Positions 36,610-46,224 of a stretch of DNA of 64,000 nt are shown piece after piece. This stretch comes from Rhodovastum atsumiense (GTDB lineage: Bacteria > Pseudomonadota > Alphaproteobacteria > Acetobacterales > Acetobacteraceae). The notes beneath the pieces are model-generated. The model was not told the DNA's origin, did not search any database, and saw nothing but the letters and a program-made list of their open reading frames with translations. The position numbers and the translations under genes were made by a program. Within the stretch, counting starts at the first letter, position 1; the number at the start of each line of letters is the position of its first letter. Location of the stretch: assembly GCF_937425535.1 (NCBI RefSeq), contig NZ_OW485601.1, forward strand, positions 3,331,501-3,395,500. The letters are read 5' to 3'.

Positions 36610-36888
36610 TCAGCGGCGGCCGGCGGCACCGGGCAGATAAAGCGTGTGGTGCCAGTAGGCCGTCCCGAGCAGCGCCACCCCGGCGGCAAGATGTGCCACG
36701 CGGGCGGCGTGGCGGTAATTCCGCCCCCCATGATCCATGAGATAGCCGGTCAGCACCAGCGCCCCCATGGAAACCACCATGGCATTCTTGGCGTCGTTGC
36801 GGTGGCGGCGCAGGCGTTCGAGACTGGTATCCACCTCCCGCTCCGCGGCAGCCGGGACGGCGGGGAGCGTGGTCTGCGTCGTGCTCAT
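36610..36888 (-). CDS. Small membrane protein at the end of the iron/P1B-6 ATPase operon
   Basis: A 92-residue protein with a helical cytoplasmic start (EREVDTSLERLRRHRNDAKNA) and two hydrophobic helices (AMVVSMGALVLTGYLMD and RVAHLAAGVALLGTAYW) separated by a His-rich turn (HGGRNYRHAARVAH). No family recognised. The start overlaps the ATPase stop by 4 nt (ATGA), so it is translationally coupled to it and likely works with it in the membrane. Confidence 0.65.
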   Translation of the reverse strand: MSTTQTTLPAVPAAAEREVDTSLERLRRHRNDAKNAMVVSMGALVLTGYLMDHGGRNYRHAARVAHLAAGVALLGTAYWHHTLYLPGAAGRR

Positions 36889-39008
36889 GCGATCGGTTCC
36901 TTGGTGATCCTGGGAAGAGTGCCGGGGGCGCGCTGCCCGTCGCCGGCCATCGCATCGGCGAGCAGGGCGATGGTGGTGCCGTTGTGCAGCAGCGAGGACA
37001 GCACCGGCGGCAGCACGCCGAGCGACGCCCCCCCCATGATCGCGGTGTTCACCCCGACCGCGGCGGCGAAGTTGCGGCGGATCGTCGCCATGGTGGCGCG
37101 GGCGACGCCCATCGCCTCGACCAGCGCTTCCAGCCGGTCTTCCAGCAGCACCATGTCGGCGGTGGCGCGGGCGATGTCGCTCGCGCGTGGCATGGCGATG
37201 CCGAGATGCGCCGTCATCAGCGCTGGGCCGTCGTTCACGCCATCCCCGACATAGGCCACCTTGTGGCCATGCTGCTTCAACTCCTGCAGCACCGCGGCCT
37301 TCTGCTCCGGGTCGGCCTCGCAGATGATCTCGTCCAGGCCGAGCCCGTCGGCGATGTGATGCGCGCTCTCGCGCCGGTCGCCGGTGACCATCACCAGCCG
37401 CCGCACCCCGAGCCGGCGCAGCGCCGCCAGCGTCTCCGCCGCCTCGGCGCGGCGGCGGTCGCGCAGGGCGATGACGCCAAGCGGCCGGCCATCGAGCGCG
37501 ACATGCAGCACCGTCTTGCCCTCGGCCTCGTAGCCGTCGAGCAACGGGGTGTACTGGGCGAAGGCCACGCGCTCGTGGTCGACCAGGTAATGGCGGCTGC
37601 CGATATGCAGCGTGCCGGCCTCGACCCGCGTGGTCAGGCCATGGCCGATGACGAAATCGACCTCTTCGTGGCCGATGTGGTGCATGCCCTCGGCGCGGGC
37701 GAGCCCGACCACGGCGGCGGCGACGGGATGGGTGGAATGCTCGGCGACCGAGGCGATGGTGGCGAGGAAGCGCTCGCGCGGCCAGGACTCCGGGTCGAAC
37801 ACCAGCACGTCGGTCACCACCAGCCGCCCATGCGTCAGCGTGCCGGTCTTGTCGAACACCACGGTGTCGATGCCGGCCAGCGCCTCCAGCGCCGGGCCGC
37901 CCTTCAGCAGGATGCCGCGCCGGGCGCTTTGGTACAGCGCCGACTTCACCGCGACCGCCGCGCCCAGCTTGAGCGCACAGGAATAATCGACCAGGAACAT
38001 CGAGGCGAGCCGTCGCGTATCCCGCGTCAGCGCGAACACCAGCGCCCCGGAGCCGAGGCTGATCCAGACGCGTCGGTCGGCCAGGTCCTCGGCCACGCGC
38101 TGGATGTCGCCGCGCCTGTTCAGCGCTTCCTGGATGAAGCGGCTGATGCGCGCGGTGGTGGTGGCCTCGCCGACCCGCTCGGCGAGGATGACCAGCCGGC
38201 CTTCCTCGACCACCGTGCCCGACAGCACCGGGTCGTCGGCCTCCTTCGGAATGGGCAGGCTCTCGCCGGTGACCGAGGACTGGTTGACGGTGGCGCCGCC
38301 GGCCAGCACGCGCCCGTCCACCGGGATCATCTCGCCGGCCTGGACATGCACGCGGTCGCCTTCGACCAGCAGGGCGAAAGCGAGCGTTATCACCTCGCCG
38401 TCGCGCTCGACCATCGCGGTGTCCGGGTTGGGGCGCAACAGGCGGCGGATCAGCGCATCGGAGCGGCGCCGGGTCGAGGCCTCGATGTATTCAGACAGTT
38501 CCAGCAGGAACTGGGTGGCGCAGGCGGTGAAATAATCCTGCCGCGCCGCGGCAAGGCCGATCGACAGCGCGTCCAGCACTTCCACCTTCACGCCGCGCCG
38601 GGCCAGCACGCGCGCCCCCCGCGCCAGGGTCGGGGCGATGCTGGCCAGCGTCAGCGCCAGTCGCAGCGGCGGCGGCAGCAGCAGCGAGGCCAGCGCGGCG
38701 GCGCCGGTGAAGACCAGCGGGCCGGGCGAGGCCTCCGCCGCCTCGGTGCCGTCCGGTGGCGGCAGGTCGGCGGCGCGCAGCCCCGCCAGGGTCCGCAGCA
38801 CCCGCTCCCGCGTGCCACGCCGTCCGTCATGCTCGACCACGACGCAGCCGGCGCGCGCATTGACGCGCACGCCGTCGACGCCGGGGACGGCCTCGATCCG
38901 CGACGCCAGCGCCCCGGCCTCGACCCGGGCGAGGTCGAGGCCGCCGGGGCGCAGACGCAGCCGCAGCGGGGTTTCATGGAGGATGCGGCATGGCACGGGG
39001 TGGGTCAT
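36885..39008 (-). CDS. P1B-6-type metal ATPase (FezB-like, SCA motif)
   Basis: A 707-residue heavy-metal P-type ATPase. An N-terminal HMA2-like fold (residues 7-80, no CxxC) precedes the membrane domain. Catalytic landmarks are complete: TGES at 247-250, phosphorylated D386 in DKTGT, HP at 427-428, TGD at 542-544 and GDGVND at 588-593. The ion-site helix has S343-C344-A345 (DYSCALKL) in place of CPC, the mark of subgroup P1B-6. P1B-6 ATPases are the FezB proteins that load iron into ferrosomes; no soluble CxxC is present, as expected. It is coupled by 4-nt overlaps to the genes on both sides, and feoAB lies upstream in the same direction. Confidence 0.9.
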   Translation of the reverse strand: MTHPVPCRILHETPLRLRLRPGGLDLARVEAGALASRIEAVPGVDGVRVNARAGCVVVEHDGRRGTRERVLRTLAGLRAADLPPPDGTEAAEASPGPLVFTGAAALASLLLPPPLRLALTLASIAPTLARGARVLARRGVKVEVLDALSIGLAAARQDYFTACATQFLLELSEYIEASTRRRSDALIRRLLRPNPDTAMVERDGEVITLAFALLVEGDRVHVQAGEMIPVDGRVLAGGATVNQSSVTGESLPIPKEADDPVLSGTVVEEGRLVILAERVGEATTTARISRFIQEALNRRGDIQRVAEDLADRRVWISLGSGALVFALTRDTRRLASMFLVDYSCALKLGAAVAVKSALYQSARRGILLKGGPALEALAGIDTVVFDKTGTLTHGRLVVTDVLVFDPESWPRERFLATIASVAEHSTHPVAAAVVGLARAEGMHHIGHEEVDFVIGHGLTTRVEAGTLHIGSRHYLVDHERVAFAQYTPLLDGYEAEGKTVLHVALDGRPLGVIALRDRRRAEAAETLAALRRLGVRRLVMVTGDRRESAHHIADGLGLDEIICEADPEQKAAVLQELKQHGHKVAYVGDGVNDGPALMTAHLGIAMPRASDIARATADMVLLEDRLEALVEAMGVARATMATIRRNFAAAVGVNTAIMGGASLGVLPPVLSSLLHNGTTIALLADAMAGDGQRAPGTLPRITKEPIA

Positions 39009-39520
39009 CGCTGCGGCGGCGTGCCGTCGGTGGGGGGCATGCCGGCCGTCTGGCGCAGCTCCGCCTCCGCGTCGCGGAAACGCTCCTTCACCTCCTCGAG
39101 CCCGCCCTGCACGCCGGCCCAGGCCGAGACCAGGCTGCGGATCAGGGTGCGCTGCACCGCCTCGTTGCTCAGCAACGCAGCCGCGGCGGCACCGACCAGC
39201 ATGCCGGTGAGCAGGTCATGGTGCTGGCCATGGTGCCAGGGAGTGGCGGGGCCACCGGCCCGGCTGGGATCGACGGCCGGCGCGGGGCCGTAGCCCGGCG
39301 GCGGATACCAGCCCGGGGCGGTGCCAGGATGCCAGTGGGGGTAACCGGCGGGATGGCCATGCGGCGCATGCCACTGGCCGGGGGGCGGGCCATACCAGCC
39401 ATAGGGCGGGGGCGGCGGCGGGTAGGCGCCGCCGGGCCAAGGCTGTCCCTGCGCCTCGTCGGGTCCTGGTGCGGTGGCCTGCGGATGTGGATCGGTCACG
39501 GTGATGGGTCTCCTCGGCAC
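39005..39520 (-). CDS. Pro/His/Gly/Tyr-rich membrane protein next to the P1B-6 ATPase
   Basis: A 171-residue protein in two parts. Residues about 10-95 are low-complexity and rich in Pro, Gly, His and Tyr/Trp (WPGGAYPPPPPPYGWYGPPP; many HG/HW pairs). A membrane helix with small residues (LLTGMLVGAAAAALLSN) and an amphipathic, charged helix (GGLEEVKERFRDAEAEL) follow, YtxH-like in layout. The start codon needs care (ATG 39520). It overlaps the ATPase by 4 nt. A His-rich tail next to a glycine-zipper helix would suit a protein that lines an iron-loaded membrane; this is an inference. Confidence 0.7.
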   Translation of the reverse strand: MPRRPITVTDPHPQATAPGPDEAQGQPWPGGAYPPPPPPYGWYGPPPGQWHAPHGHPAGYPHWHPGTAPGWYPPPGYGPAPAVDPSRAGGPATPWHHGQHHDLLTGMLVGAAAAALLSNEAVQRTLIRSLVSAWAGVQGGLEEVKERFRDAEAELRQTAGMPPTDGTPPQR

Positions 39521-39537
39521 GTCACGTCAGGGGAAGG

Positions 39538-39687
39538 CAAGGGCTCCGCCCTTGACCCGGCAGGGGTCAGGGGACCCCTGCACCCCAATTCGCGCTGCGC
39601 GGCACAGAATGGGATCCAAGGGCCTGTGGCCCTTGGTGGAGGTCCAGGAGGCAAAGCCTCCTGGCAGGGTCCGGGGCAGCGCCCCGG
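39538..39687 (+). repeat. Dispersed hairpin repeat, copy B (five consecutive hairpins)
   Basis: Fills most of the 168-bp gap between two iron-locus genes. Hairpins lie at 39538-39554 (CAAGGGC / GCCCTTG), 39560-39581 (GCAGGGGTC / GACCCCTGC), 39616-39636 (CCAAGGGCC / GGCCCTTGG), 39644-39664 (CCAGGAGGC / GCCTCCTGG) and 39671-39687 (CCGGGGC / GCCCCGG). The first two, and their flanks, match copy A at 9791-9834 with pairing-preserving changes. It may act as a structured mRNA spacer or partial terminator. Confidence 0.88.
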
Positions 39688-39688
39688 A

Positions 39689-39919
39689 TCAGCCCTGGCT
39701 GGCGGTGCCGTCGTCCCGCGCCGGCGCCGCCGGGCGCGACTGCAGCAGCATCACCGCCGCCGCCCCGATCGCGGCCCCCACCCAGAAGCCGCGGCCGCCG
39801 AGGGCGGGCAACTGGGACAGCAGGGCGTGGTAGGGCGAAGCCGGATGAGGGGCGTCGTAATGCGGCCCGTATCCCGGCGTGCCGGGGGGATACGGATAGG
39901 GGTAGGGGGGATGCGACAT
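39689..39919 (-). CDS. Small Pro/Tyr-rich membrane protein, related in layout to the 171-residue neighbour
   Basis: A 76-residue protein: MSHPPYPYPYPPGTPGYGPHY is a Pro/Tyr/Gly tail, followed by a helix FWVGAAIGAAAVMLLQS with small residues and a short charged end. The architecture is a shortened version of the 39005-39520 product. AGGAGG lies 5 nt before the ATG at 39919, which sets the start inside a longer open frame. It is the gene after the HMA2 protein in the same operon. Confidence 0.7.
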   Translation of the reverse strand: MSHPPYPYPYPPGTPGYGPHYDAPHPASPYHALLSQLPALGGRGFWVGAAIGAAAVMLLQSRPAAPARDDGTASQG

Positions 39920-39948
39920 GTTGCCTCCTTGATTCGATGTGCCGGCGC

Positions 39949-40284
39949 TCAGATGGCTGTGCCGGGTTCCGCCGCCTGCAGGCGGTCGAGCAGCCCGGCG
40001 GCCTCGCCGGCTGCGAGGGTGAGCAGGCGTTCCCAGGTGGCCGGTGCCAGCACGGCCGGGTCGTAGGCGACGACCAGGCTGCGGGCGGGCAGGTTGAGGT
40101 CGATGCCGGCGATGCCGCGGATGCGCCCGAGCAGGGGGCGCAGCCGTTCGGTGCGTCCGCCCATGGCGCGGCTCAGCGGCAGCGGGTCGAAGCGCAGCCG
40201 GATGCGGCCGGGGATGTGGTGGGCGATGGTGATATACCGTCGTGCCGCCAGCAGGGCCGCGAGGTCTTCGGCCGGCAGGCTCAC
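39949..40284 (-). CDS. HMA2-domain protein of the iron locus
   Basis: About 111 residues. The core ITIAHHIPGRIRLRFDPLPLSRAMGG and IRGIAGIDLNLPARSLVVAYDP forms an HMA2-type ferredoxin-like fold without the metal-binding CxxC; the ATPase N-terminus carries a related sequence (RILHETPLRLRLRPGG, GVDGVRVNARAGCVVVEHD). Such stand-alone proteins occur beside P1B-6 ATPases. The GTG start at 40284 overlaps the stop of the Cys-rich gene (GTGA), which sets the start within a longer open frame. Confidence 0.78.
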   Translation of the reverse strand: MSLPAEDLAALLAARRYITIAHHIPGRIRLRFDPLPLSRAMGGRTERLRPLLGRIRGIAGIDLNLPARSLVVAYDPAVLAPATWERLLTLAAGEAAGLLDRLQAAEPGTAI

Positions 40285-40469
40285 GAACAGCACCCCGACT
40301 TGCCGCCCCCATCTCCGCCGCAGCCGGAGCAGCCGCAGCCGCGTTGGGCCGGCGGGCGTCCGGCCAGCCGGCGCAGCCGGTCGGTCACCGCGCGTGGCAG
40401 CAGCATCGACCAGAGGATCCAGCCGACTGCCGCGCTCACCAGCACCAGGACGACGAGTTCCTGCCACAT
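40281..40469 (-). CDS. FeoB-associated Cys-rich membrane protein
   Basis: A 62-residue protein: one membrane helix (ELVVLVLVSAAVGWILWSMLL), a basic linker and a Cys/Gly tail (RGCGCSGCGGDGGGKSGCCS) with six Cys. Small proteins of this form commonly follow feoB and are thought to help ferrous transport or to act as a sensor. It starts 4 nt after the feoB stop and overlaps the HMA2 gene, so it is part of the same operon. Confidence 0.82.
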   Translation of the reverse strand: MWQELVVLVLVSAAVGWILWSMLLPRAVTDRLRRLAGRPPAQRGCGCSGCGGDGGGKSGCCS

Positions 40470-40473
40470 CGGC

Positions 40474-42363
40474 TCAGCCCCCCAGCAGCGCGGTGGCGAC
40501 GCGGAAGGTGACGAAGGACGCCGCGTACGCCAGTGCCAGCAGGTAGGTGAACATCGCCAGCGGCCACAGCCAGGAATTGGTCTCGCGCCGCACCACCCCC
40601 AGCGTGGAGATGCATTGCGGGGCGAACACGAACCAGGCGAGCAGGGCGAGCGCGGTGGGCAGGCTCCAGTCGGCGGCGAGGGTGCTGGCCAGCGATGCTT
40701 CCAGGGCGTCGCCGGTCTCGCTGAGCGCGTAGACGGTGCCGAGCGCCGCCACCGCCACTTCCCGTGCCGCCATGCCGGGCACCAGGGCGATGGCGATCTG
40801 CCAGGTGAAGCCGATCGGGGCGAGCAGCGGTGCCAGTGCCTTGCCGATCTGCCCGGCGAAGCTGTAGTCGATGGCCGGGCCGGTGGCGCCGTCCGGTGGC
40901 ACCGGATAGGAGGCCAGGAACCACAGCAGCACCATGATGGCGAAGATGATCGTGCCGGCGCGCACCAGGAAGATCCGGGCGCGTTCAAGCAGGCCGAGCA
41001 GCACGTCGCGTGGGTTGGGCCAGCGATAGGCGGGCAGTTCCATCAGCAGCGGCTCGCGCGCGCCGCGCAGGGTGGTGCGCTTGAGCACGAAGGCCACCGC
41101 CAGCGCCGCCAGGATGCCGGCCGCGTACAGCGCGAACATCACCAGCCCCTGCAGGCCGACGAAGCCGCCCAGCACGGTTTCGGCGGGGATGAAGGCGGCG
41201 ATCAGCAGGGTGTAGACCGGCAGCCGCGCCGAGCAGGTCATCAGTGGCGCGATCATGATGGTGGCCAGCCGGTCGGCGCGGTTCTCGATGGTGCGCGCGG
41301 CCATGATGCCGGGGATGGCGCAGGCGAAGCTGGAGAGCAGCGGGATGAAGGCGCGGCCGTGCAACCCGACCCCGCCCATCAGCCGGTCCAGCAGGAAGGC
41401 GGCGCGCGCCATGTAGCCGGAGGCTTCCAGGATCTGGATGAACAGGAACAGGATCAGGATCTGCGGCAGGAAGATCACCACGCTGCCCACGCCCGCGATC
41501 ACGCCGTCCACGATCAGGCTTTTCAGCGGGCCGTCCGCCATGGCCGCGCCGACATGGGCCTGCAGCCCGCTCATGCCGGCGTCGATCAGGTCCATCGGCG
41601 CCGCCGCCCAGGCGAACACCGCCTGGAACACCAGGAACAGCACCGTCAGCAGCGCCAGCATGCCGGCCAGCGGGTGCAGCAGCACCCGGTCCACCCGCCG
41701 CGTCAGCTCCGGCGGGCGGCCCGGCTCGCGCAGGGCGTCTGCCAGGATGCGGTCGATTTCGCGGCGGAAGCCGCGCAGCTCGACCGGCCCGGGCTCGACC
41801 CAGTCGCAGCCGCCGGCCTGCTGGCGCAGCGCCGGCGCCAGCGTGTCGATCTGCGCCAGCAGGTCGGCGATGCCGTCGCGGCGGATTGCCACCGTCGGCA
41901 CCACCGGCACCCCGAGCGCGGCCGAGAGCGCCGCCGTGTCGATGCGGCAGCCACGCCGCTCTGCCATGTCCATCATGTTCAGCGCCACGATCAGCGGCCG
42001 GCCGAGCCGCTTCAGTTCCAGCGCGAGGCTGAGATTGAGCCGCAGATTGGTGGCATCGGCGACGAACACCACCACGTCGGGCGGGGCTTCATGGGTGAAG
42101 CGGCCGAGCACGACGTCGCGGGTGACCGCCTGGTCGGGGCTGTGGGCGGTGAGCGAATAGGTGCCGGGCAGGTCCACCACCTGCACGCGGCGGCCGCCGG
42201 GGCTGACCAGTTGCCCGACCTTCCGCTCCACGGTCACGCCGGGATAGTTCGCCACTTTCTGGCGGCTGCCGGTAAGGGCGTTGAACAGCGCGGTCTTGCC
42301 GCAATTGGGATTGCCGACGAGGGCAATGCGTGGCGCGCCGACCAGCGCGGTGGTGGCGGACAT
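40474..42363 (-). CDS. feoB: Ferrous iron transporter FeoB
   Basis: Inner-membrane Fe(II) transporter (629 residues) with an N-terminal G domain: G1 GNPNCGKT at 17-24, the VANYPGVTVERKVG switch I, G3 DLPGTYSL and G4 NMMD. The membrane core has two Gate repeats, with the Cys-containing FACAIPGIMAARTIENRADRL and LMTCSARLPVYTLLI blocks and the later VPGMAAREVAVAALGTVYAL. It is shorter than the 773-residue enterobacterial form, within the family range. FeoA is encoded 34 nt upstream; the Cys-rich protein follows directly. Confidence 0.96.
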   Translation of the reverse strand: MSATTALVGAPRIALVGNPNCGKTALFNALTGSRQKVANYPGVTVERKVGQLVSPGGRRVQVVDLPGTYSLTAHSPDQAVTRDVVLGRFTHEAPPDVVVFVADATNLRLNLSLALELKRLGRPLIVALNMMDMAERRGCRIDTAALSAALGVPVVPTVAIRRDGIADLLAQIDTLAPALRQQAGGCDWVEPGPVELRGFRREIDRILADALREPGRPPELTRRVDRVLLHPLAGMLALLTVLFLVFQAVFAWAAAPMDLIDAGMSGLQAHVGAAMADGPLKSLIVDGVIAGVGSVVIFLPQILILFLFIQILEASGYMARAAFLLDRLMGGVGLHGRAFIPLLSSFACAIPGIMAARTIENRADRLATIMIAPLMTCSARLPVYTLLIAAFIPAETVLGGFVGLQGLVMFALYAAGILAALAVAFVLKRTTLRGAREPLLMELPAYRWPNPRDVLLGLLERARIFLVRAGTIIFAIMVLLWFLASYPVPPDGATGPAIDYSFAGQIGKALAPLLAPIGFTWQIAIALVPGMAAREVAVAALGTVYALSETGDALEASLASTLAADWSLPTALALLAWFVFAPQCISTLGVVRRETNSWLWPLAMFTYLLALAYAASFVTFRVATALLGG

Positions 42364-42397
42364 GGCGGATCGATCCTGCTGAAAGGGGGCGGGGCGG

Positions 42398-42682
42398 TCA
42401 GGCGAGCGGGGCGATGCGCACCGCGCGGGCCTCGTTGCGGCGCAGCGCCAGCACGTGCTCGTCCACCCGCACGGCGATGGGGTCGTGGCCCGGGAAGCCT
42501 TCGTGCATCACCTCGAGCTGCGCGCCCTCCACCAGGCCCATCTCGATCAGCCGCCGCTCCAACTGGCCGGCGGCGAAGGGGGTGGCGACACCGGTCTCGT
42601 CGAGCGCGGTCACGCTGGCGCGCTGGCCCTTGCGCAGGTCGGCGAGGCTGGTGGGCACGCGGGGCGCGGGAGAGCTGGGCAT
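42398..42682 (-). CDS. feoA: FeoA, SH3-like partner of FeoB
   Basis: A 94-residue cytoplasmic protein with the FeoA SH3-like fold: SLADLRKGQRASVTALD, then LERRLIEMGLVEGAQLEVMHEGFPGHDPIAVRVDEHVLALRRNEARAVRI. It modulates FeoB. The ATG at 42682 gives the usual FeoA start after a short Pro/Ser leader; the frame is open for 86 more codons upstream, but those overlap the promoter region. First gene of the iron operon. Confidence 0.93.
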   Translation of the reverse strand: MPSSPAPRVPTSLADLRKGQRASVTALDETGVATPFAAGQLERRLIEMGLVEGAQLEVMHEGFPGHDPIAVRVDEHVLALRRNEARAVRIAPLA

Positions 42683-43020: not shown

Positions 43021-43338
43021 ATGCCGGCTGTGATCTGCCTGGACGGGCCATTGACGATCGGGACGGCGGATCCGATTCGTGGGCGAATCCTCGAAGCTCT
43101 GGGTCAGCATCGTGCGATAGAAATCGATTGTGCGGCTGATAGCGAAACCGATATAAGTTTTGTCCAGATATTGATAGCGACCCACATTCTTGCAAAGCAA
43201 CAGGATCGATTGCTTACAATTTCGGGTCGTTTTCAGTTGATTGTTCGAAACCTTATGGAACGTGCCGGTCTGCCCGGCAGTTTCAGCAGTGATGTTTTGT
43301 CGTTCGACAAGGCATCGATCGGAAAGAGCGCCCCGTGA
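43021..43338 (+). CDS. STAS-domain protein, first gene of the chemotaxis operon
   Basis: About 105 residues with an anti-anti-sigma/STAS fold: VICLDGPLTIGTADPIRGRILEAL, an IEIDCAADSETDISFVQILIA core and a LLTISGRFQLIVRNLMERAGL end. The conserved position before the phosphorylatable Ser reads DSETDISFVQ, with a Ser present in IS. STAS proteins of this type open several alphaproteobacterial che operons. The start is ATG 43021 or GTG 43000. It is less GC-rich than its neighbours. Its stop overlaps the cheY start by 3 nt. Confidence 0.72.
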   Translation: MPAVICLDGPLTIGTADPIRGRILEALGQHRAIEIDCAADSETDISFVQILIATHILAKQQDRLLTISGRFQLIVRNLMERAGLPGSFSSDVLSFDKASIGKSAP

Positions 43339-43703
43339 CAAAGACAATTCTTGCCGTCGACGATTCCGCCAGCATGCGCCAGATGGTGCGACTGACGCTT
43401 TCCTCGGCCGGGTACCAGGTCATCGAAGCCGCGAATGGTGCCGAAGGTCTTGCGAAACTTCAGGCCTCCGGTGTGCAGATGGTGGTGACCGACCTCAACA
43501 TGCCGGTGATGGACGGCCTGACCTTCATCCGCGAGGCCCGCAAGCTGCCGGTGGGGCGCGGCCTGCCCATCGTCTTCCTGACCACCGAATCCGATGCCGG
43601 GATCAAGCAGCAGGCCAAGGAAGCCGGCGCCACCGGCTGGATCGTCAAGCCGTTCCAGCAGGAGCAGCTGGTGGCGGTCATCAGAAAGGTACTGGGCCCA
43701 TGA
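43335..43703 (+). CDS. cheY: CheY, single-domain chemotaxis response regulator
   Basis: A 122-residue receiver domain with acidic D9/D10, phospho-acceptor D53 in VVTDLNMPVMDG, Thr in FLTTES and the lysine in IVKPF. It would carry the phosphate signal from CheA to its output. GTG start within the overlap GTGA with the STAS gene. Translationally coupled to cheA downstream. Confidence 0.95.
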   Translation: MTKTILAVDDSASMRQMVRLTLSSAGYQVIEAANGAEGLAKLQASGVQMVVTDLNMPVMDGLTFIREARKLPVGRGLPIVFLTTESDAGIKQQAKEAGATGWIVKPFQQEQLVAVIRKVLGP

Positions 43704-45772
43704 ATGCGCCGGATCCGTCCGAGACCTTCCGCCAGGAAGCCGCCGAGCTCCTGGAACAACTCGAGCAGGCGTTGCTCGACCTCGAACAGGATCCGACCAA
43801 TCACGAGCCGCTCGATTCCGCCTTCCGGGCGCTGCACACCATCAAGGGCTCGGGGGCCATGTTCGGCTTCGAGCCGGTGGCGGTCTTCACCCATGATTTC
43901 GAAACCGCGTTCGATCGCTTGCGAAAAGGGAAGGCGCAGACCAGCCACGAGCTGATCGCCGTTGCCCTGCTGGCCAAGGATCACATCCGCACCCTGATCC
44001 AGGCCCCCGAGCAGGCCGACGCGGCGGCCGGCGAAGCCATCCTGCGGGACCTGCAGGCCATTGTCGCGCCGGGGGGCGCGCCTGCCATTGTCCCGGCGGG
44101 AGGTGAGGCCGCCCCGGCCAGCCCGCCCCCCGTGCCGGCCGCGCCGCCGGCGGGCACGACCTGGCGCCTGCACATAAGGTTGCCACGAAACGCTCTCACC
44201 AATGGCACCAACCCGCTGCTGCTGCTGGACGAGCTGCGCACGCTGGGCGAGTGCGTCGTCACCGCCCTGATCGACGAGGTGCCGCCCCTCGACGACCTGG
44301 ATGCGGAGGCCTGCTATCTGCACTGGGAGGTGGTGCTCACCACCACCCACCCGCGCTCGGCAATCGACGACGTGTTCATCTTCGTCATCGACGACATGAC
44401 GCTGAGCATCGAACGGGTCGAGCCCGACACCGTCGCGCCGCCATCCGCCGCCCCGCCCGTCGAGGTTGCGCCCGCCGGGGTCCCGGCGGCCACGGCGCCG
44501 CCGCCCGCCGCGCCGGCCCCCGCCCGAGCCACGCCCGCATCCCCCGCCCCGCGCGAGGCCGCGCCGGCCCGCGAGGCCGCCAAGCCCGGCTCCACCAGCC
44601 TGCGCGTCCCGGCCGAACGACTGGACGAGCTGATGGACCGCGTCGGCGAACTGGTGATCACCCAGGCCCGGCTGTCCCAGCTTGCCGGCGTGCTCGGGGA
44701 CGCCAACCTCAAATCCGTCGCCGAGGAGATCGAGCGCCTCGCCAGCGGCCTGCGCGACACCACGATGGGCATCCGCATGGTGCCGATCGGTTCGTTGTTT
44801 GGCCGCTTCCGCCGGGTCGTGCACGACCTCTCGCGTGACCTGGGCAAGCAGGTGGAGCTGGTCACGTCCGGCGAGGAGACCGAGCTCGACAAGACCATGA
44901 TCGAGCGGCTCGCCGACCCGCTGGTCCACCTGATCCGCAACGCCATCGACCACGGCCTGGAAGCGCCGCCGGCCCGCATCGCCGCGGGCAAGCCGGCCGG
45001 GGGGCAGGTGCGGCTGACCGCGCGCCATGCCGGGGCCGAGGTGCTGGTCTCGCTCGCCGATGACGGGCGCGGGCTGGATCGCGAACGGATCCTTGCGAAA
45101 TGTCGTGAGCAGGGACTGCTCACCACCGAAAATCCGCCCGATTCCGAACTGTTCCAGTTCATCTTCCATCCCGGCTTCTCCACCGCGAAGGAGATCTCGG
45201 CCGTCTCCGGGCGGGGCGTGGGCATGGACGTGGTGAAGCAGACGATCGAGGCCCTGCGCGGCGCGATCGACCTGGTCAGCCGGCCGGGGCAGGGCACCGA
45301 GGTCACGCTGCGCCTGCCGCTGACGCTGGCGATCATCGAGGGACTGCTGGTGCGGGTCGGGCGCGGCACCTACGCCTTGCCGCTCTCGGCGGTGGAGGAA
45401 TGCGTCGAGCTGCCCTCGGCCGATGAAACCCGTTCCCGCGGCCGCAGTTTCCTCAACATCCGCGGCGAGCTGGTGCCGTTCCTGCGCCTGCGCGACATCT
45501 TCGCGGTGCAGACGCCGCCCGACCCGTTCCAGAAGGTGGTGGTGGTGTCGGCGGGTGACCTGCGCGTCGGGCTGCTGGTCGACCAGATCGTCGGCAGCCA
45601 CCAGACCGTCATCAAGTCGCTCTCGAAGCTGCATGCCGGCATCGGGCATTTCTCCGGCGCGACCATCCTGGGCGACGGCACCGTCGCGCTGATCCTGGAC
45701 ATCCCGCATCTGGTCGAAACCGGCCAGCAGCGCGAGGAGCGGTTGCGCGCCGCGCAGATGGAGGCGGCATGA
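43700..45772 (+). CDS. cheA: Chemotaxis histidine kinase CheA
   Basis: A 690-residue kinase. The P1 HPt domain has phospho-H46 in ALHTIKGSGAMFGF. A Pro/Ala linker and a P2-like middle region follow, then P3 (RVPAERLDELMDRVGELVITQARL), the P4 catalytic domain with HLIRNAIDHGLE (N box), LADDGRGLD (G1) and GRGVGMDVVK (G2), and a CheW-like P5 (VRVGRGTYALPLSAVEECVEL). All are intact. The ATG overlaps the cheY stop; cheW follows with a 4-nt overlap. Confidence 0.97.
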   Translation: MNAPDPSETFRQEAAELLEQLEQALLDLEQDPTNHEPLDSAFRALHTIKGSGAMFGFEPVAVFTHDFETAFDRLRKGKAQTSHELIAVALLAKDHIRTLIQAPEQADAAAGEAILRDLQAIVAPGGAPAIVPAGGEAAPASPPPVPAAPPAGTTWRLHIRLPRNALTNGTNPLLLLDELRTLGECVVTALIDEVPPLDDLDAEACYLHWEVVLTTTHPRSAIDDVFIFVIDDMTLSIERVEPDTVAPPSAAPPVEVAPAGVPAATAPPPAAPAPARATPASPAPREAAPAREAAKPGSTSLRVPAERLDELMDRVGELVITQARLSQLAGVLGDANLKSVAEEIERLASGLRDTTMGIRMVPIGSLFGRFRRVVHDLSRDLGKQVELVTSGEETELDKTMIERLADPLVHLIRNAIDHGLEAPPARIAAGKPAGGQVRLTARHAGAEVLVSLADDGRGLDRERILAKCREQGLLTTENPPDSELFQFIFHPGFSTAKEISAVSGRGVGMDVVKQTIEALRGAIDLVSRPGQGTEVTLRLPLTLAIIEGLLVRVGRGTYALPLSAVEECVELPSADETRSRGRSFLNIRGELVPFLRLRDIFAVQTPPDPFQKVVVVSAGDLRVGLLVDQIVGSHQTVIKSLSKLHAGIGHFSGATILGDGTVALILDIPHLVETGQQREERLRAAQMEAA

Positions 45773-46224
45773 CCATGGCATCCCCCGAGCCCACCACGCC
45801 GCTGCAGGTGCTCATGCTGGGCCTGGGCGACGAGATCTTCGCCGTCGAGGCCGCGATCGTGCGCGAGATCCTCGACCCGGTGCCGGTCACCGAGGTGCCC
45901 GGCGCCCGCGGCTTCGTCGGCGGCGTGGTGAACGTGCGCGGCAAGGTGGTGCCGCTGGTCGATCTGCGGCTGCGCTTCGGCATGGAGGCGATCCGCTCCA
46001 CCGTCGACACCCGCATCGTCGTCATCGAGATCGATCTTGGCGGCGATCCCACCATCGTCGGCATGCTGGCCGACAAGGTGCACGAGGTAACCGAGATCTC
46101 GGCAGCCTCGCTGGAAAAGCCGCCGCCGGTCGGCATGCACTGGCGGCCGGAATTCATCCGCTTCATCGGCAAGCACCGCGACGGCTTCGTCATCGTCCCC
46201 GACATGGACCGCCTGTTCACCTGA
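45769..46224 (+). CDS. cheW: CheW adaptor 1
   Basis: A 151-residue CheW: LQVLMLGLGDEIFAVEAAIVREILDPVPVTEVPGARGFVGGVVNVRGKVVPLVDLRLRFG is a typical CheW core. It couples receptors to CheA. ATG within the cheA stop overlap. A second, different cheW is at 50964; each precedes one or two receptor genes, as if paired with them. Confidence 0.93.
   Translation: MTMASPEPTTPLQVLMLGLGDEIFAVEAAIVREILDPVPVTEVPGARGFVGGVVNVRGKVVPLVDLRLRFGMEAIRSTVDTRIVVIEIDLGGDPTIVGMLADKVHEVTEISAASLEKPPPVGMHWRPEFIRFIGKHRDGFVIVPDMDRLFT

Follow-up and report, generated by a model that had tools for sequence, protein, structure and literature searches.

A probable ferrosome gene cluster linked to ferrous-iron import genes in Rhodovastum atsumiense

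Eight open genes, all on the minus strand, lie at 42682-36610 of a 64-kb stretch of the Rhodovastum atsumiense genome (contig NZ_OW485601.1, positions 3,331,501 to 3,395,500; the whole analysed stretch is hereafter the window). Based on the list of open reading frames (ORFs) and family searches, they combine feoA and feoB with a P-type ATPase and small membrane protein genes, and we consider it likely (probability about 0.8) that a ferrosome (fez) gene cluster and a ferrous-iron importer are combined here. Ferrosomes, iron-storage organelles that were recognised only recently, have been studied in few species. An initial annotation of the window, made from the sequence alone, had proposed a candidate ferrosome locus with a ferrous-iron uptake operon. 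The proposal is supported by the grouping of the pump, by gene content, and by the linkage to FeoB, which was found at 7 of 25 related loci versus 1 of 59 controls. Gene content, pump grouping, a FezA-type gene directly before FezB across loci and recurrent feo linkage were all directly observed. The locus type is already known and its small genes are of known kinds; its interest comes mainly from the host.

The pump, denoted FezB, carries TGES at residue 247, Ser-Cys-Ala (SCA) at residue 343 in the fourth transmembrane segment (TM4), DKTGT at 386, GDGVND at 588 and HNGTT at 675, and its N-terminus is weakly HMA_2-like. The SCA triplet lies in the ion-site helix, where the initial annotation had read it. 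The four other P1B pumps found in the host genome all carry CPC, and SCA is not the host default. We take SCA to be the mark of subgroup P1B-6, as given in the initial annotation, and the labels P1B-1 to P1B-5 of the reference pumps were likewise assigned by motif. PMC4932525 lists P1B-6 among the subtypes recognised from sequence; the available parts of that paper do not mention 'SCA'.

Relatives were collected from named genomes with an alignment-based scan, which yielded the best 80 of at least 585 candidates encoding a relative; one of the two scan patterns covers part of the TM4 motif, so the motif is not independent evidence there. Phylogenetic trees were built with the TM4 motif masked. 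The first had 66 rows; the second, with 70, also contained two more CPC pumps and one reference each of the SPC type (C. metallidurans) and the TPC type (S. meliloti), and CPH was likewise represented by a single row. Twenty-four of 90 extracted ATPases (near-duplicate CPC-type pumps and one incorrectly chosen ORF) were omitted from the first tree, and the same 24 of 94 from the second. Locus L043 had no ORF for the trees and is included in the 25 SCA loci, and L022, whose pump is broken at the end of a contig, was counted in neither.

In both masked trees, the window pump grouped with those of Rhodopseudomonas palustris XCP, Rhodomicrobium udaipurense and a Xanthobacter metagenome-assembled genome (MAG) with support of 100/99, and these four rows nested within a set of 19 SCA-type rows, supported at 100/99 and 100/98 in the 66-row and 70-row trees, respectively. 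All 24 SCA-type rows formed one clade in the 66-row tree (96/91), with CopA, ZntA, the CPH row and the host CPC pumps outside it. In the 70-row tree, the groups stayed intact in 96% of the 200 bootstrap trees, and the bootstrap had not settled; the SPC pump joined ZntA-type rows (100/99) and the TPC pump formed a long branch apart from the window pump. Comparison with P1B-1 to P1B-5 pumps, which the initial annotation had named as able to refute the P1B-6/FezB assignment, did not refute it and placed the pump with R. palustris and not with the CPC, CPH, SPC or TPC rows. The best matches of the window pump among solved structures (E <= 1e-20) were CopA-type pumps.

A second motif, HN..T, was present in 24/24 SCA-type rows versus 2/66 other ATPases. 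Exact SCA was found in 21 of the 24 SCA-type rows, and the remainder read SCT, ACA and ACP. Among six relatives picked by ATPase similarity rather than by motif, four read SCG or ACG and still had a FezA-type gene in front. The earlier statement that SCA marks P1B-6 should therefore be put more cautiously, as the case for SCA as the only mark of the clade is weakened, and the sequences suggest that the fez group is wider than the motif implies. The FezB-like pumps of loci L118-L121 have FSCG or FACG replacing YSCA in TM4, with a FezA-type gene directly in front. The sister group in the 66-row tree, from cyanobacteria and some Alphaproteobacteria, has a GTG/ATG-like TM4 (DYGTG or DFxTG, no Cys), and at its loci (L023, L048, L050 and L052-L055) an HMA2 profile match was found in six of seven, all but L054.

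Pumps of this kind are sparsely distributed. With the own genome counted throughout, matches at E <= 1e-120 were found in 1/7 genomes of the genus and 1/200 of the order, matches at E <= 1e-90 in 5/385 of the class (two with GTG or SCG in TM4), and matches at E <= 1e-105 in 8/398 of the phylum. Excluding the own genome and a broken pump (G539) from these eight left six loci picked without regard to the motif (hereafter the motif-free loci), to which profiles of the small genes were applied at E <= 1e-3.

The profiles were made from a few seed loci, which are included in the match counts, and compared between the 25 SCA loci and 59 control loci (the rest of the relative scan plus two from the class-level search). 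PGY2 matched 20/25 SCA loci (7 seeds), gene X, a gene of related loci, 18/25 (6 seeds), PGY1 17/25 (6 seeds) and FezC 5/25 (4 seeds), and none of these four profiles matched any of the 59 controls. The HMA2 profile, which also matches pump N-termini, hit 19/25 SCA loci. At the motif-free loci, PGY2 was found in 6/6, PGY1 in 5/6, a separate HMA2 in 4/6, X in 2/6 and FeoB in 1/6, and the FezA-type gene stood directly in front of the pump at all six. The search for fez clusters with the same small genes thus recovered matching gene content at loci of other species. The initial annotation had also suggested that the small proteins could be new ferrosome components. We rejected this idea, since each of them is of a known kind and has counterparts at other loci.

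PGY2 consists of a P/G/Y/H-rich N-terminus, a hydrophobic segment and a charged EExKERFRDAEAE tail, and it aligns with the small gene preceding FezB at the Desulfovibrionaceae locus L042 (profile E 3e-5). From these sequence resemblances, we infer that PGY2 is of the FezA type and corresponds to the FezA of the literature. FezA and FezB are both needed for ferrosomes in Clostridioides difficile (PMC12574912). The 92-aa protein encoded behind the pump shares invariant His66, Gly70 and His80 with four aligned FezC-like proteins, among them the HMA_2 fusion of L042; four of five FezC-like homologues match DUF4405 at a loose limit of E <= 5 (best 2.9e-5), and one matches cytochrome b561 (E 0.00097). 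FezC of ferrosome bacteria is described as a DUF4405-related haem-b protein (PMC10979944), and by analogy the 92-aa FezC-like protein is probably a haem-b cytochrome. The match of the HMA_2-type protein to PF19991 is weak (E 2.2e-5, 24.9 bits, under the cut-off of 30), and the family search with the 62-aa Cys-rich peptide gave no match above its cut-off.

The FeoB gene lies on the pump strand at five of the seven linked SCA loci (the window, L025, L026, L027 and L040) and on the opposite strand at L031 and L037. In a midpoint-rooted FeoB tree of 11 rows, three of them from joined pieces, the window FeoB paired (support 100/100) with a second FeoB of the host itself, to which it is 64% identical, and its identity to the FeoB next to the R. 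palustris XCP fez genes is 38%. Since FezB groups with R. palustris and FeoB with the host paralogue, the two seem to have different histories. This pattern suggests from the sequences that the feo-fez linkage arose more than once, and the window feoAB was probably recruited separately from R. palustris feoAB; alternatively, feoB may have been replaced later in place. The position of the Cys-rich peptide is taken by FeoC-like genes in the Xanthobacter MAG and at the R. palustris XCP locus. Ferrosome genes of C. difficile are iron-repressed via Fur (PMC12574912). Upstream of the window feoA, TTGAAAAT and ATTCGCAT, 7 nt apart, were seen by eye as widely spaced half-sites. A Fur-box-like near-palindrome, TTGCAAACAATTCGCAA, was likewise seen by eye upstream of the host's second feoAB (L010).

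R. palustris CGA009 makes ferrosomes from six fez genes, RPA2333-2338 (PMC12016538), which elsewhere appear in a list of genes implicated in metal ion transport and turned down in low light (PMC6879726). In strain XCP, the order is FezC-like, FeoA, FeoB, FeoC, HMA2, PGY1, X, PGY2 and FezB. The window locus resembles it in having HMA2, PGY1, PGY2, FezB (53-55% identical) and a FezC-like gene, with feoAB adjacent. However, the window has a repeat in place of X, its FezC-like gene comes after FezB rather than before feo, its FeoB is of another type, and a Cys-rich peptide is encoded instead of the FeoC-like protein. Shewanella sp. TC10 (L033) has HMA2, PGY1, PGY2 and FezB in equal order but differs in the presence of X, and on the fetched stretch it showed no FeoB match and no FezC profile match. 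Locus L042 (Desulfovibrionaceae), which we treat as representing the fezABC type, shares the order FezA-type, FezB, FezC-type, whereas its FezC-type gene consists of HMA_2 fused to a membrane part and the window has two separate genes. HMA_2 matches directly behind the pump were also observed at L043, L044, L046 and L068, besides L042 (10099-10593), where the fused partner is FezC-like. Compared with feoABC operons, feoA and feoB of the window are canonical by family match, but they are joined to fez genes, with the Cys-rich peptide where FeoC would stand. The literature search found no paper combining three or more of P1B, SCA, P1B-6, FeoB and granules, and among the matches listed for ferrosomes with FeoB or feoAB one used the word 'ferrosome'.

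Relatives carry gene X between PGY1 and PGY2, and from the compared loci we infer that it is one of the six published R. palustris fez genes. In the window, the PGY1-PGY2 gap holds a dispersed repeat of ~155 bp that has at least 42 matches in the own genome, its own copy being one of the 40 strong ones (40 of 355 candidates scored). Lacking X, the locus does not hold the full six-gene set of the R. palustris/Shewanella type, and we do not assign it to that subtype. X seems dispensable to the fez kind, because it is also missing at 6 of 24 other SCA loci, including the Xanthobacter MAG, and at 4/6 motif-free loci, although short contigs may hide some.

All eight genes, as listed in the initial annotation, are co-directional (Table 1). 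Four of the seven junctions are tight, with three 4-nt overlaps and one 4-nt gap as read from the coordinates, and the looser ones measure 34 nt (feoA-feoB), 29 nt (HMA2-PGY1) and 168-189 nt (PGY1-PGY2). Describing most junctions as tight is thus reasonable, although a genuine break lies between PGY1 and PGY2. The promoter scan found none, and the terminator scan found one terminator-like site, within the ATPase gene (shuffle mean 1.3). The GC content of 0.67-0.73 over 36-45 kb falls inside the window range of 0.63-0.73, and composition gives no sign of transfer. Beyond feoA on the opposite strand, at 43335-46224 of the window, are genes that by reading appear to be chemotaxis-type genes (CheY-, CheA- and CheW-like).

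Table 1 Features of the candidate ferrosome locus, in window coordinates
Feature	Position	Strand	Basis
feoA	42682-42398	-	PF04023, E 5.6e-16, 58.8 bits
feoB, 629 aa	42363-40474	-	TIGR00437, E 1.7e-151, 505.9 bits vs cut-off 315.65
Cys-rich membrane peptide, 62 aa, one hydrophobic stretch and Cys-rich tail	40469-40281	-	FeoB-associated by position
HMA_2-type small protein (HMA2), 111 aa, GTG start, no cysteine	40284-39949	-	PF19991, counterparts at other fez loci
PGY1, 76 aa, P/Y-rich N-terminus and one hydrophobic segment	39919-39689	-	Profile match at SCA loci
Dispersed repeat, three perfect 9-bp hairpins, at the place of gene X in relatives	39531-39687	.	Genome matches
PGY2, FezA-type membrane protein, start GTG 39499 or 39520	to 39005	-	Profile matches, alignment
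FezB, P1B-6-type ATPase, 707 aa	39008-36885	-	TIGR01525, 481.6 bits vs cut-off 346.25; trees
FezC-like small membrane protein, 92 aa	36888-36610	-	Alignment, weak DUF4405

Several observations weigh against a ferrosome cluster at this locus. Support for the 24-row SCA set drops to 74/0 once the SPC and TPC rows join in the 70-row tree, and the tie of the pump to Desulfovibrionaceae, as far as the trees indicate, is less firm than its tie to R. palustris. Similarly, the profile match that links PGY2 with the Desulfovibrionaceae gene misses 1e-4 at the larger search size. The HMA2 profile is not specific, as 8/59 controls match. The window FezC-like protein matches DUF4405 weakly (E 0.02, below the cut-off), and the FezC profile gained one non-seed locus of the 25 and 0/6 motif-free loci. 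Gene X was not found in the window locus or in the host genome, by a genome search that had no positive control, and the hairpin-rich repeat in the PGY1-PGY2 gap could cut transcription. A palindrome scan for an iron box upstream of feoA was empty, as it was at two other host feo genes, where it also missed a look-alike in front of another feoA, and it had no working positive control. Furthermore, the R. palustris comparison was made with strain XCP (L040), not CGA009, and stationary-phase cells of R. atsumiense G2-11 at 50 uM ferric citrate contained no magnetosome-like particles by electron microscopy (PMC9938234), in micrographs that did not cover iron-starved and re-fed cells.

The missing X, the hairpin-rich repeat in its place and the wide gap would also fit a decaying fez cluster, in which X loss and the repeat have cut PGY2-FezB-FezC off from the genes upstream and ferrosomes are not made. 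The pump (E <= 1e-120) being confined to the own genome in its genus points the same way, although only five of the seven genomes are at least 90% complete. However, all eight frames are open, the catalytic motifs of the pump are kept, and X is absent from enough other loci to seem dispensable, and we regard decay as unlikely. P1B pumps are mostly exporters, and the host has its own ferritin-family gene for ordinary storage, so the pump could instead be a cell-membrane exporter of Fe(II) or a similar metal that guards against excess from FeoAB, with no organelle. A P1B-5 pump, Nia, has been described with Ni and Fe substrates (PMC4932525), and the lack of reported magnetosome-like particles in the probable host strain (PMC9938234) would suit this explanation as well. 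Against it stand the grouping of the pump with R. palustris FezB in the masked trees and the FezA-type genes that accompany the pump at 20/25 and 6/6 loci; an exporter and an importer in one operon would, moreover, make little sense. We therefore consider a plain exporter quite improbable.

An ordinary copper or zinc pump standing beside feo by chance would account for the heavy-metal P-type match to TIGR01525. It was rejected on the masked trees, in which CopA, ZntA, the SPC and TPC references and the host CPC pumps group elsewhere, and on the absence of CPC, SPC and TPC from TM4. The neighbourhood is, furthermore, conserved across orders, and we give this explanation almost no weight.

If the locus is a ferrosome cluster joined to an importer, FeoAB would carry Fe(II) across the inner membrane, and the FezA-type protein (PGY2), together with PGY1 and the HMA_2 protein, would shape or mark a membrane vesicle. 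FezB would then use ATP to pump Fe(II) into the lumen of the vesicle, and the FezC-like protein would pass electrons across the vesicle membrane, allowing storage as Fe(III) and release as Fe(II). Vesicle formation, the direction and ion of transport, and haem binding are proposed here by analogy with published work on other species.

The host genome contains two reaction-centre (PF00124) genes. Its magnetosome genes surround another feoAB at ~84-106 kb of the main contig (G000:C1; L124, L125). Beside one host feoB lies MamB (397.3 bits vs a cut-off of 350), and on the other side of that feoB are MamH (570 vs a cut-off of 300) and proteins resembling MamO and MamE, which score under the respective cut-offs of 800. 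R. atsumiense G2-11 has one 6.48-Mb chromosome and eight plasmids, carries silent magnetosome genes including feoAmBm-mamPAQRBST, and is amenable to conjugation and gene deletion (PMC9938234). The host mam genes match this published silent magnetosome island, and the host strain is very probably G2-11. The word 'ferrosome' does not occur in the available main text of the G2-11 magnetosome paper (PMC9938234), nor was it mentioned among the matches listed in a literature search on Rhodopila/Acetobacteraceae.

Judging from the gene content, both organelle programmes, ferrosome and magnetosome, would be present in a single tractable phototroph. An independent joining of different FeoB types to fez, as hinted at here, would point to coupled iron import and compartment filling, and the split HMA_2 and membrane parts of FezC, together with the X-less loci, indicate which components may be dispensable. 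A more speculative idea, which we hold to be rather doubtful, is that a functional ferrosome pathway operates in G2-11 beside the silent magnetosome island, supplied by the strain's own recruited FeoAB, with different types of Fe(II) importer repeatedly attached to fez so that import and filling act as one unit. If this is true, the ferrosome pump would compete with magnetosomes for the same Fe(II), and such competition could help explain the silent or costly magnetosome genes, the small crystals and the quick loss of transplanted magnetosome genes. The locus predicts ferrosomes in a genetically tractable phototroph with magnetosome genes, in which both iron organelles would be comparable in one cell.

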